A stretch of DNA of 64,000 nucleotides, taken from positions 3,410,001 to 3,474,000 of the forward strand of contig NZ_CP095073.1 in assembly GCF_022919095.1 (NCBI RefSeq), written 5' to 3'. Shown one piece after another: positions 1 to 8,797 of this stretch (the stretch's first letter is position 1; every line of letters begins with the position of its first letter). Under the pieces are notes generated by a model. That model was not told where the DNA came from and ran no database searches. It saw nothing but the letters and a program-made list of their open reading frames with translations. The translations under genes were made by a program, and so were the position numbers. This DNA comes from Halobacillus salinarum. Lineage in GTDB: Bacteria; Bacillota; Bacilli; Bacillales; Halobacillaceae.

Positions 1-1076
1 GCGAACGTAACTTGATTGCCTCCAAACCCTCTAAATTCACCGGAAACCCCATTGTTCGTATAGACTGATTTTCCTTTTATATCTATGTTGGGAATGATGT
101 AAGGTCCTGAAGCATGTTCAACAGCAAAGTCCAGTATCGCCGGCCCGAGAGTTGCATAAGCACCTGTATCAGCAAGGATCCGCACTTGATGAGCTTGCAG
201 CACCCCTTGCTCATCAGCTCCGGTTTTCATCATAATTTTCATCGGATGTCTTTTTAACCCGGAAATCATGGATTCTTTTCTCGTTTGATGAATTTTAACT
301 GGACGACCACTCTTCAAAGCAAGAAGAGCTCCGTAAGGCTGGATATTTAATTCATCCTTCCCGCCGAACGAGCCGCCCATTGGACTGGATACTACGCGAA
401 TGCTCTCTTCCTTGATTGCTAATATCCTCGATAGTTGAAAACGGTCCTTATACCCATGCTGTGTACCTACATAGGCCGTTATCCCTCCCCCAGGTTCTGG
501 AACAATGACTCCGCCTTCTGTTTCCATATAGGTATGCATCTGCCTTGGAACAAGGTAAGCTTCCTCTACCACTGCTTTGCAATTCTCAAAACCATCACCC
601 ATGTTTCCCTGCTGGCAGCCAGCTTCGTGAAGGATGTTTCCATTGTCATGGATGGGCATCGTCTCCTCATGCAGGGCAGTTTCCATCTCATCAATAACAG
701 GCAGCTCTTCATAGTGAACTTGGATCCTTTGTAATGCCTGTTCAGCAATCTCAAGGGAGTCCGCAGCTACAGCAGCTACGGCATCACCGATAAAACGTAC
801 ACGCGTTTCACAAAGCACGGGTTGATCCGGGGTAATAATGCCAAACCCATTAAGTTCTGGAATATCTTTATGAGTAATAACAGCCCTTACACCCGCCATT
901 TCTTCTGCTGTTGATGTATCAATGTTAAGAATATTGGCGTGAGGATAAGCGCTTCTTAATATCTTTCCATACAGCATAGAATCAAATGAAAGGTCACTTA
1001 AATAACGCAGATCCCCGGTGACTTTTCCTTGTCCATCCGGTCTTACCCGCTGACGATATTGAGAAATCTGCTGCAT
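1..1076 (-). CDS. pucD: Xanthine dehydrogenase, molybdenum-binding subunit (5' part; runs off window)
   Basis: This is the N-terminal roughly 358 residues of the large catalytic subunit that oxidises hypoxanthine and xanthine to urate at a molybdenum-pterin site. The reading frame is open from the ATG at 1076 to the window edge. It contains the family hallmark GGSFGGKDE and a typical start, MQQISQYRQRVRPDGQGKV. The start is supported by AGAAAGGAGT just upstream, lying in the 3' end of pucC, with only 3 bases between the genes. Order pucA-pucB-pucC-pucD matches the B. subtilis puc operon; the 2Fe-2S subunit pucE would be expected beyond position 1. The C-terminal half is not in view. Confidence 0.93.
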   Translation of the reverse strand, partial: MQQISQYRQRVRPDGQGKVTGDLRYLSDLSFDSMLYGKILRSAYPHANILNIDTSTAEEMAGVRAVITHKDIPELNGFGIITPDQPVLCETRVRFIGDAVAAVAADSLEIAEQALQRIQVHYEELPVIDEMETALHEETMPIHDNGNILHEAGCQQGNMGDGFENCKAVVEEAYLVPRQMHTYMETEGGVIVPEPGGGITAYVGTQHGYKDRFQLSRILAIKEESIRVVSSPMGGSFGGKDELNIQPYGALLALKSGRPVKIHQTRKESMISGLKRHPMKIMMKTGADEQGVLQAHQVRILADTGAYATLGPAILDFAVEHASGPYIIPNIDIKGKSVYTNNGVSGEFRGFGGNQVTF

Positions 1077-1988: not shown

Positions 1989-2599
1989 TGATACTCATCC
2001 TCCGTATCGATATCAAAGAACATCCACCATTGATCATATTCAATCTTCCTCCCTTGAGCAGCAAGCTTTTTGTTAAGGAGGCATTTAGCCCCTTTGTCTC
2101 CGCATAGAGTAAACAAGTCTTGAAACAATGTATAATCGATCAATAAAGGCGGCTGAATGACTCCATGGAAAGCAGAAGCTACGAAATGAAAAGGAGGGTC
2201 TTCTTCTCTCCCTTCTCGATAGTTCTTTAATAACTCATTAATCATAGCGGGAGTGACAAAGGGTTGATCGGCCAACAGGATAACAATTTGTGTGGCCTTA
2301 AAGAATTGAGCTCTTCTGATACCTTCCTGGAGTGAATAGGCCTGGCCATCACACGCTCTCGGGCATACTACGTGTGTCCATTTTGAACGGTAAGGTTCAC
2401 AAAGGAATGCAGGCTCCATCCAATTGAGGGAATCCCCTTCTTGAGTAATCACGTAAATATGATCGAGTTCCGAAAATAAAGCCTTCGAAAAGGAATGGCT
2501 GCCAATAGTCGTTCGTTCCAGGACAAGACTCAGCTTATTACGTCCCATACGTTTGCTCTTTCCAGCAGCCAGAAAAATACCGACCTTATCCCGATTCAT
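1949..2599 (-). CDS. pucB: Molybdenum cofactor cytidylyltransferase/MocA-type maturation protein
   Basis: This 216-residue nucleotidyltransferase carries the N-terminal NTP-binding signature LAAGKSKRMGRNK (about residues 10-22) of the MobA/MocA family, and ADQPF in the middle. In B. subtilis, PucB is needed to make active xanthine dehydrogenase, presumably by converting the molybdopterin cofactor to its cytosine dinucleotide form. It overlaps pucA by 14 bases, with AAGGTGG upstream of the ATG, and sits immediately before pucC. Function is by family and context; the nucleotide used is not proven by the sequence. Confidence 0.88.
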   Translation of the reverse strand: MNRDKVGIFLAAGKSKRMGRNKLSLVLERTTIGSHSFSKALFSELDHIYVITQEGDSLNWMEPAFLCEPYRSKWTHVVCPRACDGQAYSLQEGIRRAQFFKATQIVILLADQPFVTPAMINELLKNYREGREEDPPFHFVASAFHGVIQPPLLIDYTLFQDLFTLCGDKGAKCLLNKKLAAQGRKIEYDQWWMFFDIDTEDEYQWITELGPAYQLN

Positions 2600-3590
2600 G
2601 AAGCACCACCTTAGATTTTTTAGACACTTGAATCAATTGAGCAATAATGCTGATGGCAATCTCATCTGCTCCTTCAGCGTCGATCGATAAACCGGCTGGA
2701 GTCGTGATTAAAGGCGGAAGGACATCCGTTCCTAACAGCCGTTTCGTTCTTTGTTTAGATCCTAATACTGCTAAATATTTCAATTCTTTCCCTATTAAAT
2801 AAGAGAGCAGTTCTTTATCTTTTTGAAAACTATGGGTCAACAGAACAACAAAATCATTGGGAGAAAATTGAATTTTGTTTACTAAGTCTGTTGGAAAACC
2901 TACAATTCTCTCATCAGCATCAGGAAAATGCTCTTTCGTGCATAAGGCTGGACGCCAGTCTGCTACTATAACTGAAAAACCTGTTTTGGACGCCATGTCT
3001 ACTAATGGAATGGCATCTTTGCCTGCCCCCAGAACGATCAGCCTCTCCTTAGGCTGAAAACAGTGAAAGTAAACTTCTTTTTCTCCTTCTTTTGTTTTAC
3101 CGAATTTTTGTGAGGTCATTTCTAAACTTTTCCCGGAAAAGTAGTCGTTATCTCCGAAATACTCCTCGCCTGCTCTGTAAAGGGTTTTCACTTCGCTGTT
3201 GCCGATAGGCAGTTTTTTATACATCGTGACTTTCTTCCCTTGCTCAAGCAGTACCTTTAATTTAGTTAACTGACTACTTAACACATCAGTAATAGGTTCG
3301 AGCAATACTTGAATCAAGCCATTACAGCCTGATCCTTCTCCCCACATCAAATCACGATAGCCTCTCATGTCATAAACAATAATTTCAGCATCTTTTGACT
3401 CATTCCGTTTGATTCGTTCGGCTACATCTTCCTCCAGACATCCCGCACTAATCATACCTACCTGACTTCCATTTTGTTTAAAAAGCATCATCGCTCCTTC
3501 TTTTTTATAAGCAGATCCTTCAACGTGGACGATAGTAGCTAATACATCACCAGTTTCTGCTTCTGGAAAGATTTGATGAATATCATCCAT
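2586..3590 (-). CDS. pucA: XdhC/CoxI-type xanthine dehydrogenase maturation factor
   Basis: This 334-residue protein has an N-terminal XdhC/CoxI domain (VEGSAYKKEGAMM; SAGCLEEDV near residues 49-57) and a C-terminal Rossmann-like XdhC domain (VLGAGKDAIPL near residue 190). XdhC proteins bind and protect the sulfurated molybdenum cofactor and insert it into xanthine dehydrogenase. It is the first gene of the puc operon here, with GGGAGAAACAACT before the ATG. No separate promoter was identified with confidence in the AT-rich 226 bases upstream. Confidence 0.9.
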   Translation of the reverse strand: MDDIHQIFPEAETGDVLATIVHVEGSAYKKEGAMMLFKQNGSQVGMISAGCLEEDVAERIKRNESKDAEIIVYDMRGYRDLMWGEGSGCNGLIQVLLEPITDVLSSQLTKLKVLLEQGKKVTMYKKLPIGNSEVKTLYRAGEEYFGDNDYFSGKSLEMTSQKFGKTKEGEKEVYFHCFQPKERLIVLGAGKDAIPLVDMASKTGFSVIVADWRPALCTKEHFPDADERIVGFPTDLVNKIQFSPNDFVVLLTHSFQKDKELLSYLIGKELKYLAVLGSKQRTKRLLGTDVLPPLITTPAGLSIDAEGADEIAISIIAQLIQVSKKSKVVLHESG

Positions 3591-3816: not shown

Positions 3817-4206
3817 ATGAGCTATCAAGTCTTCGTTTACGGTACTCTTCTAAACGGCGAATCCAACCATCACATCGCTGTTCCACATTTATTAAAAAGC
3901 GAACCAGGTACCATTCATGGATGTTTATATAATGTCGGCCGATACCCAGCCGTCGTCTTAAACGATAAAAACAAAATTACGGGCGAATGGTTCACAATTA
4001 CAGAAGAAGGTCTGCGGCAATTCGATACCCTCGAAGGTCATGAACCAGGCAGCACCAATAACCACTATGACCGCGTTTGGATTGCAGATGCAAATAACGA
4101 TCAAGAAGGTTATGTTTATACGTTCACAGAGGAACAAGCAGCAGCACTTGAAGAAATTCCATCCGGAAACTGGATTAATTTCCGCAGGAAGAAACACTTA
4201 CGTTAG
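3817..4206 (+). CDS. Gamma-glutamylcyclotransferase-like protein (AIG2/YtfP-type)
   Basis: This 129-residue protein has the family start, QVFVYGTLLNG, whose YGTL loop binds the gamma-glutamyl group, and an acidic residue in the middle (EGHEPG region). Members cleave gamma-glutamyl-amines to 5-oxoproline, but the substrate cannot be read from sequence. A strong AAAGGAGGTTGATTCC precedes the ATG. The stop codon overlaps the end of the convergent amidohydrolase gene by 9 bases, so the two transcripts are antisense at their 3' ends. Confidence 0.8.
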   Translation: MSYQVFVYGTLLNGESNHHIAVPHLLKSEPGTIHGCLYNVGRYPAVVLNDKNKITGEWFTITEEGLRQFDTLEGHEPGSTNNHYDRVWIADANNDQEGYVYTFTEEQAAALEEIPSGNWINFRRKKHLR

Positions 4207-5531
4207 AACTGGCGATCGCTTGACTAGACGCTTAATCGAATTATCCGCTTCATTTAATACAAGTTCTTTGTCTATCGTTTTTAGTTTCCCTTGATCCATA
4301 ACTACTTTTCCATTAATCATGGTCATGTCCACGTCTGCCCGGGTAGCGGAGTAAACAATTCTCGAGATGGGATCTACATTAAAACTTGGATACGTATGAA
4401 ATTGACGCAGATTCAATATCGCTAAATCTGCCTTTTTCCCAATTTCAAGGCTGCCTATTTCATGTTGACGGCCAATCGCCCGGGCACCACCTATGGTTGC
4501 CATCCTGAATACAGTTTTCGCGTCCATGGCTGCAGGTCCATGAAAGGGTTTTTGAATAAGAGCAGCCAGTCTCATCTCGTTAAACATATCTAAATTATTG
4601 TTACAAGGAGCGCCATCCGCCCCTAAACTCAATGAAATCTCCCGATTGACTAAATCCTGAGTATCAGCAATTCCGGAAGCAAGCTTTAAATTTGAACCAG
4701 GACAATGACTGACATGCACACCTTTTTCCTTGATGATTTTCTTTTCCATTTCATCCAGCCAAACACAATGAGCTAAAATCAACCGTTCATTAGCAAGACC
4801 AAGAGAATCAAGGTACACCACATTCCTCATTCCTGTCTCCGCCTCTACCATTTGAATTTCCCCTTGATTTTCAGAAGCGTGCGTATGGACATAAACATTG
4901 TAAAACTTGGACAATCTCGCTACTTCTCTAAGAAGCTCCTCGGTACAAGAAATCGCAAACCTCGGTGAGAATGCGTATTGGATCCGCCCGCCATCATGCA
5001 TATGCCACTTTTTCAGCAAATCAACGCTTTCCTGAAGAGATTTCTCAGTACTTTCCTGGAGATTACTCGGAACTCCGCCACCTTTATCCATCATCACCTT
5101 TCCCGAAAGGGCACGAATTCCACTTTTTGATATCGCCTGAAAGGCAGCATCCGTATGGTGCACCGTCTCCATATCCACCACTGTTGTCGTTCCACTTTCA
5201 ATCATTTCCCCAAGACCAAGCATGGCCGAATAATAAATCGACTCTTCATCGTGTGCAGCTTCAAGCGGCCAGATCCGCTTTTCCAACCATTCCATCAATT
5301 CCAAGTCATCCCCCTGCCGCGAAAAAGCGTCTGACACAGATGAATATGCGTCTGAACGAACCCCGGAATTACAGTTCGCCCCTCGGCATCAATGACCTCA
5401 TCGACCTCGTCATTAAGATTCTGACCCATTTTAATAATGAATTCATCCTGGATCAGAACATCTCCTTTTATCACCTCTTCACGCTCATTCATTGTAATGA
5501 TTTCAGCATTCTTAATTAGCATCCGACTCAT
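4198..5531 (-). pseudogene. Purine-type amidohydrolase (8-oxoguanine/guanine deaminase-like), single-base frameshift
   Basis: Read in two frames, this is a 444-residue metal-dependent amidohydrolase of the AtzA/TrzA group. The N-terminal part (5295-5531) ends with the metal-binding THIHL (H62, H64). The rest (from about 5316 downwards) carries HTHASENQGE, LAHCVWLD and GADGAPCNNN. One extra G in the five-G run at 5310-5314 would join them seamlessly as QTLFRGRGDDLEL, so this may be a sequencing error and the gene intact. The neighbourhood (xanthine dehydrogenase, NCS1 permease) and the purine-type riboswitch in its leader favour deamination of guanine or 8-oxoguanine. The exact substrate is inference. 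Confidence 0.85.
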
Positions 5532-5580
5532 GTAAAGACCCCCCGATTAAATTTTCAGATGATAGAAACAGATGAAATGG

Positions 5581-5640
5581 ACAAAACAAAAACCCGGCCG
5601 CAAAACGCACAGCCCCGCGACCATACGTTTCGTAGCCAGG
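5581..5640 (-). terminator. Riboswitch expression platform: terminator that uses the aptamer's 3' strand
   Basis: On the minus strand CCTGGCTACGAAACG (5640-5626) can pair with CGTTTTGCGGCCGGG (5607-5593) in 14 of 15 positions, counting three G-U pairs. It is followed by TTTTTGTTTTGT. The upstream arm is the 3' strand of aptamer helices P3 and P1, so terminator and ligand-bound aptamer exclude each other: ligand should turn the gene ON. A shorter hairpin (GGTCGC/GCGGCC) inside the same stretch lies three bases before the T-run and would be a weaker terminator. Confidence 0.75.
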
Positions 5641-5694
5641 AATTTACGGTTCCTTGTAGAGACCCTCAAACCAGATTATTGAGAATATACGAAA
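5628..5694 (-). promoter_or_regulatory. Purine (guanine-family) riboswitch aptamer, variant core
   Basis: The minus strand folds into the purine three-way junction. P1 is TTTCGTA/TACGAAA, P2 is CTCAA/TTGAG with a loop ending in TGG, and P3 is AGGAA/TTCCT with loop CCGTAAA. The two loops keep the GG/CC residues that pair in known aptamers. In xpt numbering the ligand-contacting U22, U47, U51 and C74 are kept, so the ligand should be guanine-like. Positions 24 (U), 48 (C), 54 (A) and 73 (G) differ from the usual A, U, C and A. The aptamer lies about 100 bases before the amidohydrolase start. Confidence 0.85.
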
Positions 5695-5714
5695 CTTGCA
5701 TATGAATTTCTTCT

Positions 5715-5743
5715 ATATTACGACTTCCACCCTTTTCATTCAA
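5715..5743 (-). promoter_or_regulatory. Candidate sigma-A promoter for the riboswitch-controlled gene
   Basis: On the minus strand TTGAAT (5743-5738) and TAATAT (5720-5715) are separated by 17 bases. Transcription would start close to 5708, just before the aptamer begins at 5694. Confidence 0.55.
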
Positions 5744-5928: not shown

Positions 5929-7383
5929 ATGGGATTGCAAAATCCAACTGCTAAAGAAGATCCACGTCCGGAAAATGAACTCTCCGTCTTCACTAATCGT
6001 TTAAAGATGCCGCACATTTACGTGATTTTATTTTTGTTTAGTATGGTGGCAGCCATTACGACTTATTTCGTTCCAGCAGGTACGTACGACAGAATAAGTG
6101 GACCTGAAGGAAGGACGACCATTGATCCTAGTTCATTTCATACAGTAACCCCAAGCCCAACTTCTCCCACGGATTTCATGCTCGCATTTCCTAAAGGGCT
6201 GGTTAGTGCAGGAAGTGTGGTATTCTTCACATTTATCATTGGTGGAATGTTTATGGTATTAAGAAGAACCGGCATTATAGAAATTGCCGTTGATACGTTA
6301 ACGAGAACCTTCACAGAAAAAAGTCTTGCCATTATCCCTGTGCTGATGATCGTTTTTTCATTGATTTGCAGTTTAATAGGAACACAGGAGCTCAGCCTCG
6401 TTTATGTACCTGTCATTCTGCCTCTGGTGATCGCGCTGGGCTATGACTCGATCATCGCTGCAGCCATAGCTCTTTGCGCCACAACGGCCGGGTTTACTGC
6501 AGGTTTTTTAAACCCCATTAACACAGGATTAGGACAGAAGCTGGCCGGACTCTCTCTTTACAGCGGATTAGGTCTCCGCCTGGCCGCTTTTATGATCATG
6601 GTAGTTATCGGTATCTTGTATGTGCTCCGATATGCAAGGAGAATTAAACGTGACCCTGAACAAAGTCTTGTTTATGAGGACGATTATGAAAAACGCAAGC
6701 TTTACAAAACCGTACAAAGTACGAATCGCTATCAAGCCACCCTCAGGCAGAAGCTAGCTTCCATAACCGCTCTGCTATTCTTCGGTATCCTTGTCTACGG
6801 AGTGCTGAAGCACAGCTGGTTCATGATGGAAATGTCAGGGTTGTTTATCATCATGGGTATCGTTGTAGGTCTGGTAGCAGGACTCTCTACAAGTGAAATA
6901 TGTGAAGGATTCAATGATGGCTTTAAAAGTGTTTTACTAGGGGCATTTATTGTAGGGGTGGCTCGAGCAGTAGCCGTCATTATGGAAGACGCTCATATCA
7001 TGGATTCGATCGTCTTCGGACTCGGTCAACTTGTCGGCCATTTTCCTTCTATATTCAGCGCCATTGGAATGTTTATTGTGCAATTACTATTCAACTTTCT
7101 TGTCCCTTCAGGAAGCGGACAAGCCTTAGTGACAATTCCTATAATGGCTCCGCTGGCAGACCTTATAGGGGTTACGAAGCAGACAGCCATACTTGCCTAT
7201 CAATTCGGAGATGGTTTAGGCAACATCTTGTTTCCTACTTCCGGTTATTTTATGGCCACTCTTGCCTTAGCTGGAGTGAAGTGGCAGAAGTGGGTTAAGT
7301 TTTACCTTCCCCTTTTTGGATTGTGGACAGGTACGAGCCTTATCTTTTTAATCATTGCACAAATTATTCAATGGAATGGCTGA
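5929..7383 (+). CDS. YfcC/DcuC-family membrane carrier
   Basis: This 484-residue polytopic membrane protein has about 11-12 hydrophobic segments. It begins with the family pattern KMPHIYVILFLFSMVAAITTYFVPAGTYDR (split here: PHIYVIL, then VPAGTYDR) and has the repeated re-entrant-like motifs GTQELSLVYVPVILPL and PSGSGQALVTIPIMAPLADL. YfcC relatives are usually predicted carriers for basic amino acids, short-chain acids or C4-dicarboxylates. Here it sits beside purine genes and just before an NCS1 permease, so a purine breakdown product is possible but unproven. GTAGGAGGAATGTAA precedes the ATG. Confidence 0.82.
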   Translation: MGLQNPTAKEDPRPENELSVFTNRLKMPHIYVILFLFSMVAAITTYFVPAGTYDRISGPEGRTTIDPSSFHTVTPSPTSPTDFMLAFPKGLVSAGSVVFFTFIIGGMFMVLRRTGIIEIAVDTLTRTFTEKSLAIIPVLMIVFSLICSLIGTQELSLVYVPVILPLVIALGYDSIIAAAIALCATTAGFTAGFLNPINTGLGQKLAGLSLYSGLGLRLAAFMIMVVIGILYVLRYARRIKRDPEQSLVYEDDYEKRKLYKTVQSTNRYQATLRQKLASITALLFFGILVYGVLKHSWFMMEMSGLFIIMGIVVGLVAGLSTSEICEGFNDGFKSVLLGAFIVGVARAVAVIMEDAHIMDSIVFGLGQLVGHFPSIFSAIGMFIVQLLFNFLVPSGSGQALVTIPIMAPLADLIGVTKQTAILAYQFGDGLGNILFPTSGYFMATLALAGVKWQKWVKFYLPLFGLWTGTSLIFLIIAQIIQWNG

Positions 7384-7414
7384 GCTGCTGAGTAATCAAT
7401 AAAAGGAGGAAATT

Positions 7415-8797
7415 ATGACTAGTCATTATAGCTTGCTGCCGATTACTAAAGAAAAAAACCGTATTTTAGGTCCAAAAGCTTACATTGCGATGTGGTGGGG
7501 AGACGCCATCATGGTCGGTTCGTTTATGTTAGGATCCAGTATGATTCCCCCATTCGGAGAACTAAATTTGTATCAGGCATTTGCAGCATTGATTTTGGCA
7601 AACCTATTAGCCGCTCTTTTGTTTGCTTTAAACGGTAGAGTCGGATGGAAGCATGGGATACCGATGGTGGTACAGCTTCGTTCTTCGTTTGGACCCGCCG
7701 GAGCAAAAGTTCCTTCACTTCTTCGGGCAGTTCCTGCATTATTTTGGTATGGCGTCCAAACGTGGTTAGGTGCACAAGCCTTGAATCATATCTTTCTCGA
7801 TATCACAGGGTTCGGTAATGTTTGGATCTGGTTTTTTAGCTTTCAGGCACTGCAGATTTATTTATCTGCCAAAGGAATCAAATCTATTAAATGGATCGAG
7901 ATTGTCGGGGCGATTATTATCATGCTTGGTGTCATCTACATGATTTTCCTATTCCTCTCAACCTTTGGGTTCCAAGTGGAAAAAACTGCTGACATACAAG
8001 GAACATGGGGCATTCCGTTCTGGCTTGCGATGACCGTGTTACTCGGACAGTTTTCAGCGCTCTTCTTAAATGTGTCTGATTACACGCGTTATGTCCCTAA
8101 AAAAATATCAGGTAAAACCTTCATCGGCTCCCATATTATCGGGATTGTACCGCCAATGATCCTGCTCCCCCTCGTCGGGGTTTTAGGAGCAGCGGCCGTT
8201 GGGATATGGAACCCCGTTGATATTATTTCCGAGTACATATCAAATTTCATGGCAAGTCTGATTATCTTACTCGTCATTGCATTAGCCCAAATTACAACTA
8301 ATCTTGTCGCTAACATTACACCTACCGTATTTGTAGCCATGGATCTTTTCAACATATCCTGGGAGAAAGCCTGTGTGATCATCGGTCTCCTCGGAGTCTT
8401 CACTTGTCCGTGGTGGATCATGAGTGCTTCTTACTTTACTGTCTTTATTTCCATCGTTTCCGCATTCTTAGGACCAGTGTTCGCAGTTATGGTCATCGAT
8501 TATTACTTTATCCATAAAGGTCATTACAATGTGGAGAAATTATATGAGACAGCTCATTTATTTTCCTCTTTCAAAGGGTGGAATCCTGCAGCGATCATTG
8601 CCATTACTGCAGGTACAGCGTTTTCTTTCATCAATGTTGATTTATCCTGGTTTTTAGGGCTTCTCCCAGCTGGTATAGTTTATTTATTACTCATGAAATT
8701 CTGGATAGGAAAAAAAGAAAAGTATGTAGAAGATTCTATAACCTCCACATCAGCTCAAACCGTCATGAGGGAGAAAAAAGAAATCCAGGCAAATTAA
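7415..8797 (+). CDS. NCS1-family nucleobase/allantoin-type permease
   Basis: This 460-residue, 12-segment membrane protein is a nucleobase:cation symporter-1 family member. Its N-terminus, NRILGPKAYIAMWWGDAIMVG, is split here by the 20-residue limit: NRILGPKAYIAMWW, then GDAIMVGSFMLG. LRSSFGPAGAKVPSLLRA and VSDYTRYVPKK are also family-like. It resembles PucI/CodB transporters. It follows the YfcC gene by 31 bases in the same direction with AAAGGAGGAAATT before the ATG, so they form an operon. With the puc genes and amidohydrolase this is probably the uptake arm of purine or purine-derivative use; substrate is inferred. Confidence 0.85.
   Translation: MTSHYSLLPITKEKNRILGPKAYIAMWWGDAIMVGSFMLGSSMIPPFGELNLYQAFAALILANLLAALLFALNGRVGWKHGIPMVVQLRSSFGPAGAKVPSLLRAVPALFWYGVQTWLGAQALNHIFLDITGFGNVWIWFFSFQALQIYLSAKGIKSIKWIEIVGAIIIMLGVIYMIFLFLSTFGFQVEKTADIQGTWGIPFWLAMTVLLGQFSALFLNVSDYTRYVPKKISGKTFIGSHIIGIVPPMILLPLVGVLGAAAVGIWNPVDIISEYISNFMASLIILLVIALAQITTNLVANITPTVFVAMDLFNISWEKACVIIGLLGVFTCPWWIMSASYFTVFISIVSAFLGPVFAVMVIDYYFIHKGHYNVEKLYETAHLFSSFKGWNPAAIIAITAGTAFSFINVDLSWFLGLLPAGIVYLLLMKFWIGKKEKYVEDSITSTSAQTVMREKKEIQAN

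Follow-up and report, generated by a model that had tools for sequence, protein, structure and literature searches.

Guanine riboswitches usually act as OFF switches, and their textbook role lies in synthesis and uptake. A class of 8-oxoguanine riboswitches, found ahead of 8-oxoguanine deaminase genes, was reportedly described in PNAS in 2023. Guanine-II riboswitches mainly control phosphoribosyltransferases and are predicted to follow ON logic; passages of the same paper also mention the 8-oxoguanine class (Hamal Dhakal et al. 2022, PMC9295807). The riboswitch that concerns us here lies in a 64-kb stretch of Halobacillus salinarum DNA, referred to below as the window, where it precedes a purine deaminase gene. 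Our preferred reading, to which we assign a probability of about three in four, is that of a guanine-responsive transcriptional ON riboswitch that serves guanine catabolism by controlling a purine, most likely guanine, deaminase.

The presence of a purine riboswitch in this leader is confirmed. The Rfam purine family RF00167 matches positions 5712-5613 (minus strand) with 69.1 bits against a gathering threshold of 37 and an E-value of 4e-10 over the whole window, within which it is the sole Rfam match to reach its gathering threshold; an ortholog-based covariance model (R1) scores the aptamer at 86.4 bits. Both models and the covariation place the guanine-type aptamer, from P1 to P1, at 5625-5697 on the minus strand, with the stems P1, P2 and P3 and the kissing sequences of L2 and L3. 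The three-way junction, the loop-loop contact and the guanine contacts U22, U47, U51 and C74 (xpt numbering) had been recognised in an earlier, sequence-only reading of this DNA, and the RF00167 alignment bears them out, all four contacts being kept. Among 16 orthologous aptamers, compensatory changes fall on 9 pairs of the stems (30 cells against 8 in shuffles), exceeding both shuffled and slid controls. The element is conserved: a survey of 397 genomes of the window's order located the deaminase in 73, and half of the 70 leaders examined (35/70) carry the aptamer at E <= 3.4e-8, the other half being without a riboswitch. In 33 confident aptamers from these orthologous leaders U47, U51 and C74 never vary, and 32 of them have U22.

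Four core positions of the window aptamer (A24U, U48C, C54A and A73G) depart from the consensus, as the sequence-only reading had it, but two of the four are ordinary. Among 33 guanine riboswitches from the window's taxonomic family, which form the top-scoring part of the RF00167 matches and are biased to canonical cores, position 24 is A in 20 and U in 13, position 48 is C in 17 and U in 16, and positions 53-54 and 72-73 read CC and GA in every case (33/33). The window genome's own guanine riboswitch (L001) likewise combines U24 with C48. Positions 24 and 48 were thus rejected as the mark of a new pocket, both variants being common in the family. The possibility that the variant core would simply match ordinary guanine riboswitches is borne out at 24 and 48 and contradicted at 54 and 73, where the window has A54, G72 and G73 in place of the usual C54-G72 pair and A73.

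The intrinsic terminator extends over 5583-5640 (minus strand), and its 5' arm is made up of the 3' end of P3, J3/1 and the 3' strand of P1. Here CCTGGCTACGAAACGTATGGTC (5640-5619) forms a stem with GGCTGTGCGTTTTGCGGCCGGG (5614-5593), and TTTTTGTTTT comes next; the U-rich tail lies at 5592-5583. The hairpin (5640-5593) has a predicted folding energy of -33 kcal/mol, with z = -5.8 relative to shuffled sequences; when the whole leader is folded, it displaces P1. A terminator that overlaps J3/1 and the 3' strand of P1 recurs at the same register in 30 of the 35 aptamer-bearing orthologous leaders, compared with 15% when the downstream sequence is shuffled, by a strict test which bulged stems such as those of flavoprotein leaders escape. 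These two results rule out a chance terminator. The closest ortholog, from the same taxonomic family, has a leader (L036) in which the aptamer is present and the overlapping terminator is not recognisable. Across the 30 leaders position 73 faces the terminator 3' arm as GC in 19, AU in 7 and GU in 4, and position 72 as GC in 14, AU in 9, GU in 6 and UG in 1, with zero breaks at either position, which provides direct comparative support for ON logic. Since J3/1 and the 3' strand of P1 are needed for the terminator as well, a bound ligand should keep it from forming and would raise expression. The terminator that had been drawn from the 3' strands of P3 and P1 therefore stands, and the predicted ON arrangement in front of a purine deaminase gene gains support from its conservation in the 30 leaders.

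The same pairing of positions 72 and 73 supplies a reason for G73 other than ligand choice. The changes at 54 and 73 characterise a widespread subgroup and are probably due not to a new ligand but to the strand shared with the terminator and to a relaxed base in P3; the loss of C54 and the gain of G73 recur in leaders of NCS2 permeases, of a flavoprotein and of a phosphoribosyltransferase, and in those of xanthine-II. A purine aptamer whose preference had shifted towards xanthine, hypoxanthine or a modified guanine, in keeping with the deaminase's real substrate, would also account for a core that differs from ordinary guanine riboswitches at 54 and 73, given that J3/1 lies against the ligand and that enzymes of the PRK07228 clade, like the one encoded here, may naturally act on another purine. 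We regard this as unlikely, as the ligand-contacting bases are all of the guanine type, positions 72 and 73 vary in step with the terminator arm, and 9 of the 33 orthologous aptamers keep A73 ahead of the same deaminase gene. That the deaminase-associated ON aptamers, with their lost C54-G72 pair, mostly G73 and short P3, constitute a separate subclass preferring a ligand other than plain guanine, such as a modified guanine or xanthine that would be the true substrate of the PRK07228-type enzyme, seems to us quite improbable.

Aptamers of this type occur in the window's order as well as in genomes that we call Paenibacillaceae-like, a label that rests on gene content, on genome size and on the riboswitch types recovered; in the latter, similar ON aptamers precede the same deaminase (L152-L155, L158). 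Elsewhere, flavoprotein leaders (L142-L147, L151, L157, L159, L161, L162, L226, L235, L238) carry the same kind of purine aptamer with an apparently overlapping terminator. The flavoprotein ('YDVIVVGAGPAGIF...') stands behind such aptamers in genomes from three or more further families of the taxonomic class and, judged from one protein (L144), is without an NCBIfam match at E 1e-20. Purine aptamers are also found ahead of a DMT-type transporter (L241-L243), two of them with a long P2 insertion.

The sequence-only reading had entertained 8-oxoguanine as the ligand and, with it, an extension of that class to another family. An 8-oxoguanine riboswitch outside the Paenibacillaceae, turning on an 8-oxoguanine deaminase, would fit both the ON platform and the downstream amidohydrolase, a relative of 8-oxoguanine deaminases that has the HxHxxQ motif in common with PRK08203 proteins. 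The window aptamer was compared with leaders of genuine 8-oxoguanine deaminases. The PRK08203 gene is present in 21 of 247 genomes of the Paenibacillaceae-like family, with a purine aptamer upstream at three loci (L179, L181 and L189, from three genera), the last of which was found with model R1 only and is absent from the Rfam scan. In all three J2/3 is GGCUCUAC, one nucleotide short and missing U47, and A73 is kept, whereas the window has G73 and a full-length J2/3, GGUCUCUAC, with U47; it thus falls outside the 8-oxoguanine class as these three leaders define it. All 33 confident aptamers from the orthologous deaminase leaders are free of this J2/3 deletion (U47 in 33/33). The enzyme scores 261 bits against the 8-oxoguanine deaminase family NF006055/PRK08203, below the cut-off of 532, and two genomes carry PRK07228-type and PRK08203 enzymes as separate genes, their PRK08203 loci being without an R1 match. 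The alignment that had been proposed as a check hence gave a divided answer, agreement with RF00167 and a J2/3 mismatch with the three PRK08203 leaders found here. On this comparison 8-oxoguanine was rejected as the ligand; neither the proposed sensing nor the proposed extension of the class is supported, and we consider both very improbable.

The deaminase starts at ATG 5531 (minus strand) after the riboswitch leader, with a probable Shine-Dalgarno sequence (GGGGGG) at 5539-5544 on the same strand; a promoter scan of the leader found no convincing site. The N-terminal part of this TRZ/ATZ-type purine deaminase, a PRK07228 relative with the metal/catalytic motif HIHLCQ, occupies 5295-5531 (minus strand) and is ended early by a frameshift. 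The rest, about 370 residues with a PRK07228 match, follows in a different frame at 4198-5337 (minus strand); the GTG at 5337 is not its real start. The frame switches in a run of five G (5310-5314, minus strand) that lacks one base by comparison with the open ortholog frames, a break that the sequence-only reading had overlooked. The break is either an assembly error or a recent pseudogene. If the deaminase were a pseudogene here, the riboswitch would be a decaying element that no longer regulates a working enzyme, a view for which the break itself speaks, lying as it does in a single-contig genome. It appears doubtful, in that assemblies often err by one base in homopolymers, the aptamer and its terminator show no damage, and the orthologs (63-78% identical, most of about 450 codons) have open frames.

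The enzyme belongs to NF005557/PRK07228 (624 bits, cut-off 522), a family named 5'-deoxyadenosine deaminase in NCBIfam. HxHLCQ is present in all 34 orthologs checked; its glutamine is also found in 8-oxoguanine deaminases (HxHxxQ), while MTA/SAH deaminases align a residue other than Q at this position. In guanine-type amidohydrolases the corresponding glutamine has a catalytic role (PMC13054789). This pattern makes the family name doubtful here, and the substrate is most likely guanine.

The genomic setting agrees with a role in purine breakdown. Downstream of the deaminase and on the same strand lie genes for an XdhC-family maturation factor (2586-3590; best NCBIfam matches to XdhC families, below cut-off), a PucB-like xanthine dehydrogenase accessory protein (1949-2599; TIGR03202, 168 bits, below the cut-off of 235), a PucC-like FAD subunit (1080-1988; TIGR03199, 232 bits, below the cut-off of 306) and a PucD-like molybdenum subunit that runs off the window (1-1076; TIGR03196, to which the partial protein scores 530 bits against a full-length cut-off of 784). 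Elsewhere in the genome no TIGR02967 guanine deaminase scored above cut-off, and a search for a GuaD of the cytidine-deaminase fold found none, the four PF00383 proteins reading as TadA, ComEB, RibD and Cdd. The gene behind the riboswitch is thus the sole candidate for a guanine deaminase that these searches turned up in the genome, which also has a xanthine dehydrogenase cluster. On the other side, a divergent YfcC-like transporter and an NCS1-family permease related to allantoin permeases (5929-8797, plus strand) fit a region of purine or nitrogen catabolism.

Taken as a guanine-responsive ON switch, the leader would work as follows. With no ligand bound, the 3' strand that runs through P3, J3/1 and P1 would pair with downstream sequence to form the terminator with its U tract, and transcription would stop. 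Guanine held by U22, U47, U51 and C74 would lock P1 and J3/1, block the terminator and allow the deaminase to be made, which in turn would channel guanine by way of xanthine into the xanthine dehydrogenase pathway encoded alongside. Sequence does not tell guanine from hypoxanthine or xanthine with certainty; guanine and xanthine had both been named as alternatives to 8-oxoguanine, and guanine, for which all four contacts are kept, now appears to be the best candidate. An ON-type guanine aptamer also stands ahead of a GMP reductase gene (L166; TIGR01306, 665 bits), and ON aptamers ahead of both GMP reductase and the deaminase are consistent with guanine-triggered disposal of guanine. The comparison establishes the aptamer with its preserved ligand contacts, its overlap with the terminator and the conservation of both; guanine as the ligand, a rise in expression on binding and guanine deamination by the enzyme are inferred. 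The riboswitch is real and conserved and looks functional.

In Bacillales-like bacteria, guanine riboswitches appear to be in wide use as ON switches of purine breakdown, the reverse of their OFF role. The length of J2/3 together with U47 offers a sequence criterion that could separate deaminase-associated ON switches from 8-oxoguanine switches, and the family name 5'-deoxyadenosine deaminase is suggested to be wrong, at least where the riboswitch precedes the gene. No report of a guanine ON switch ahead of a guanine deaminase was found in the literature outside subscription papers, which is weak evidence of novelty.

Among the known systems, guanine-I (RF00167) has the three-way junction, the loop-loop contact and U22, U47, U51 and C74 in common with the window, and A24U and U48C are common in guanine-I riboswitches of the same family; the window differs in being predicted ON rather than the usual OFF, in having lost the C54-G72 pair, in the change of A73 to G and in its short P3. 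The 8-oxoguanine riboswitch of Paenibacillaceae has the same scaffold, an ON terminator and a downstream deaminase gene, but its J2/3 lacks U47, its A73 is kept and its gene is PRK08203. Guanine-II resembles the window in its predicted ON logic, in U51 and C74 and in a G directly before C74. It was rejected for this leader, as J3/1 in a Paenibacillaceae example ahead of a phosphoribosyltransferase gene (L240) is CCAGGCUA, whereas the window's GGCUA is without that extension. Adenine ON riboswitches of the pbuE and add type also act by disrupting a terminator; they have U74, unlike the window with the guanine base C74, and were set aside on that account. One U74 adenine-type ON aptamer with an overlapping terminator precedes an adenine deaminase gene (L202, genome G467). 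Apparent xanthine-II aptamers (L231, L234, L236, L244), in settings that include allantoinase and a Rieske-type dioxygenase, carry U51G; the window keeps U51, which rules out this class. The window riboswitch comes nearest to guanine-I, combined with an ON platform, and matches none of the xanthine-II, guanine-II-like (L240) or adenine-type (L202) variants recovered from ten whole genomes.
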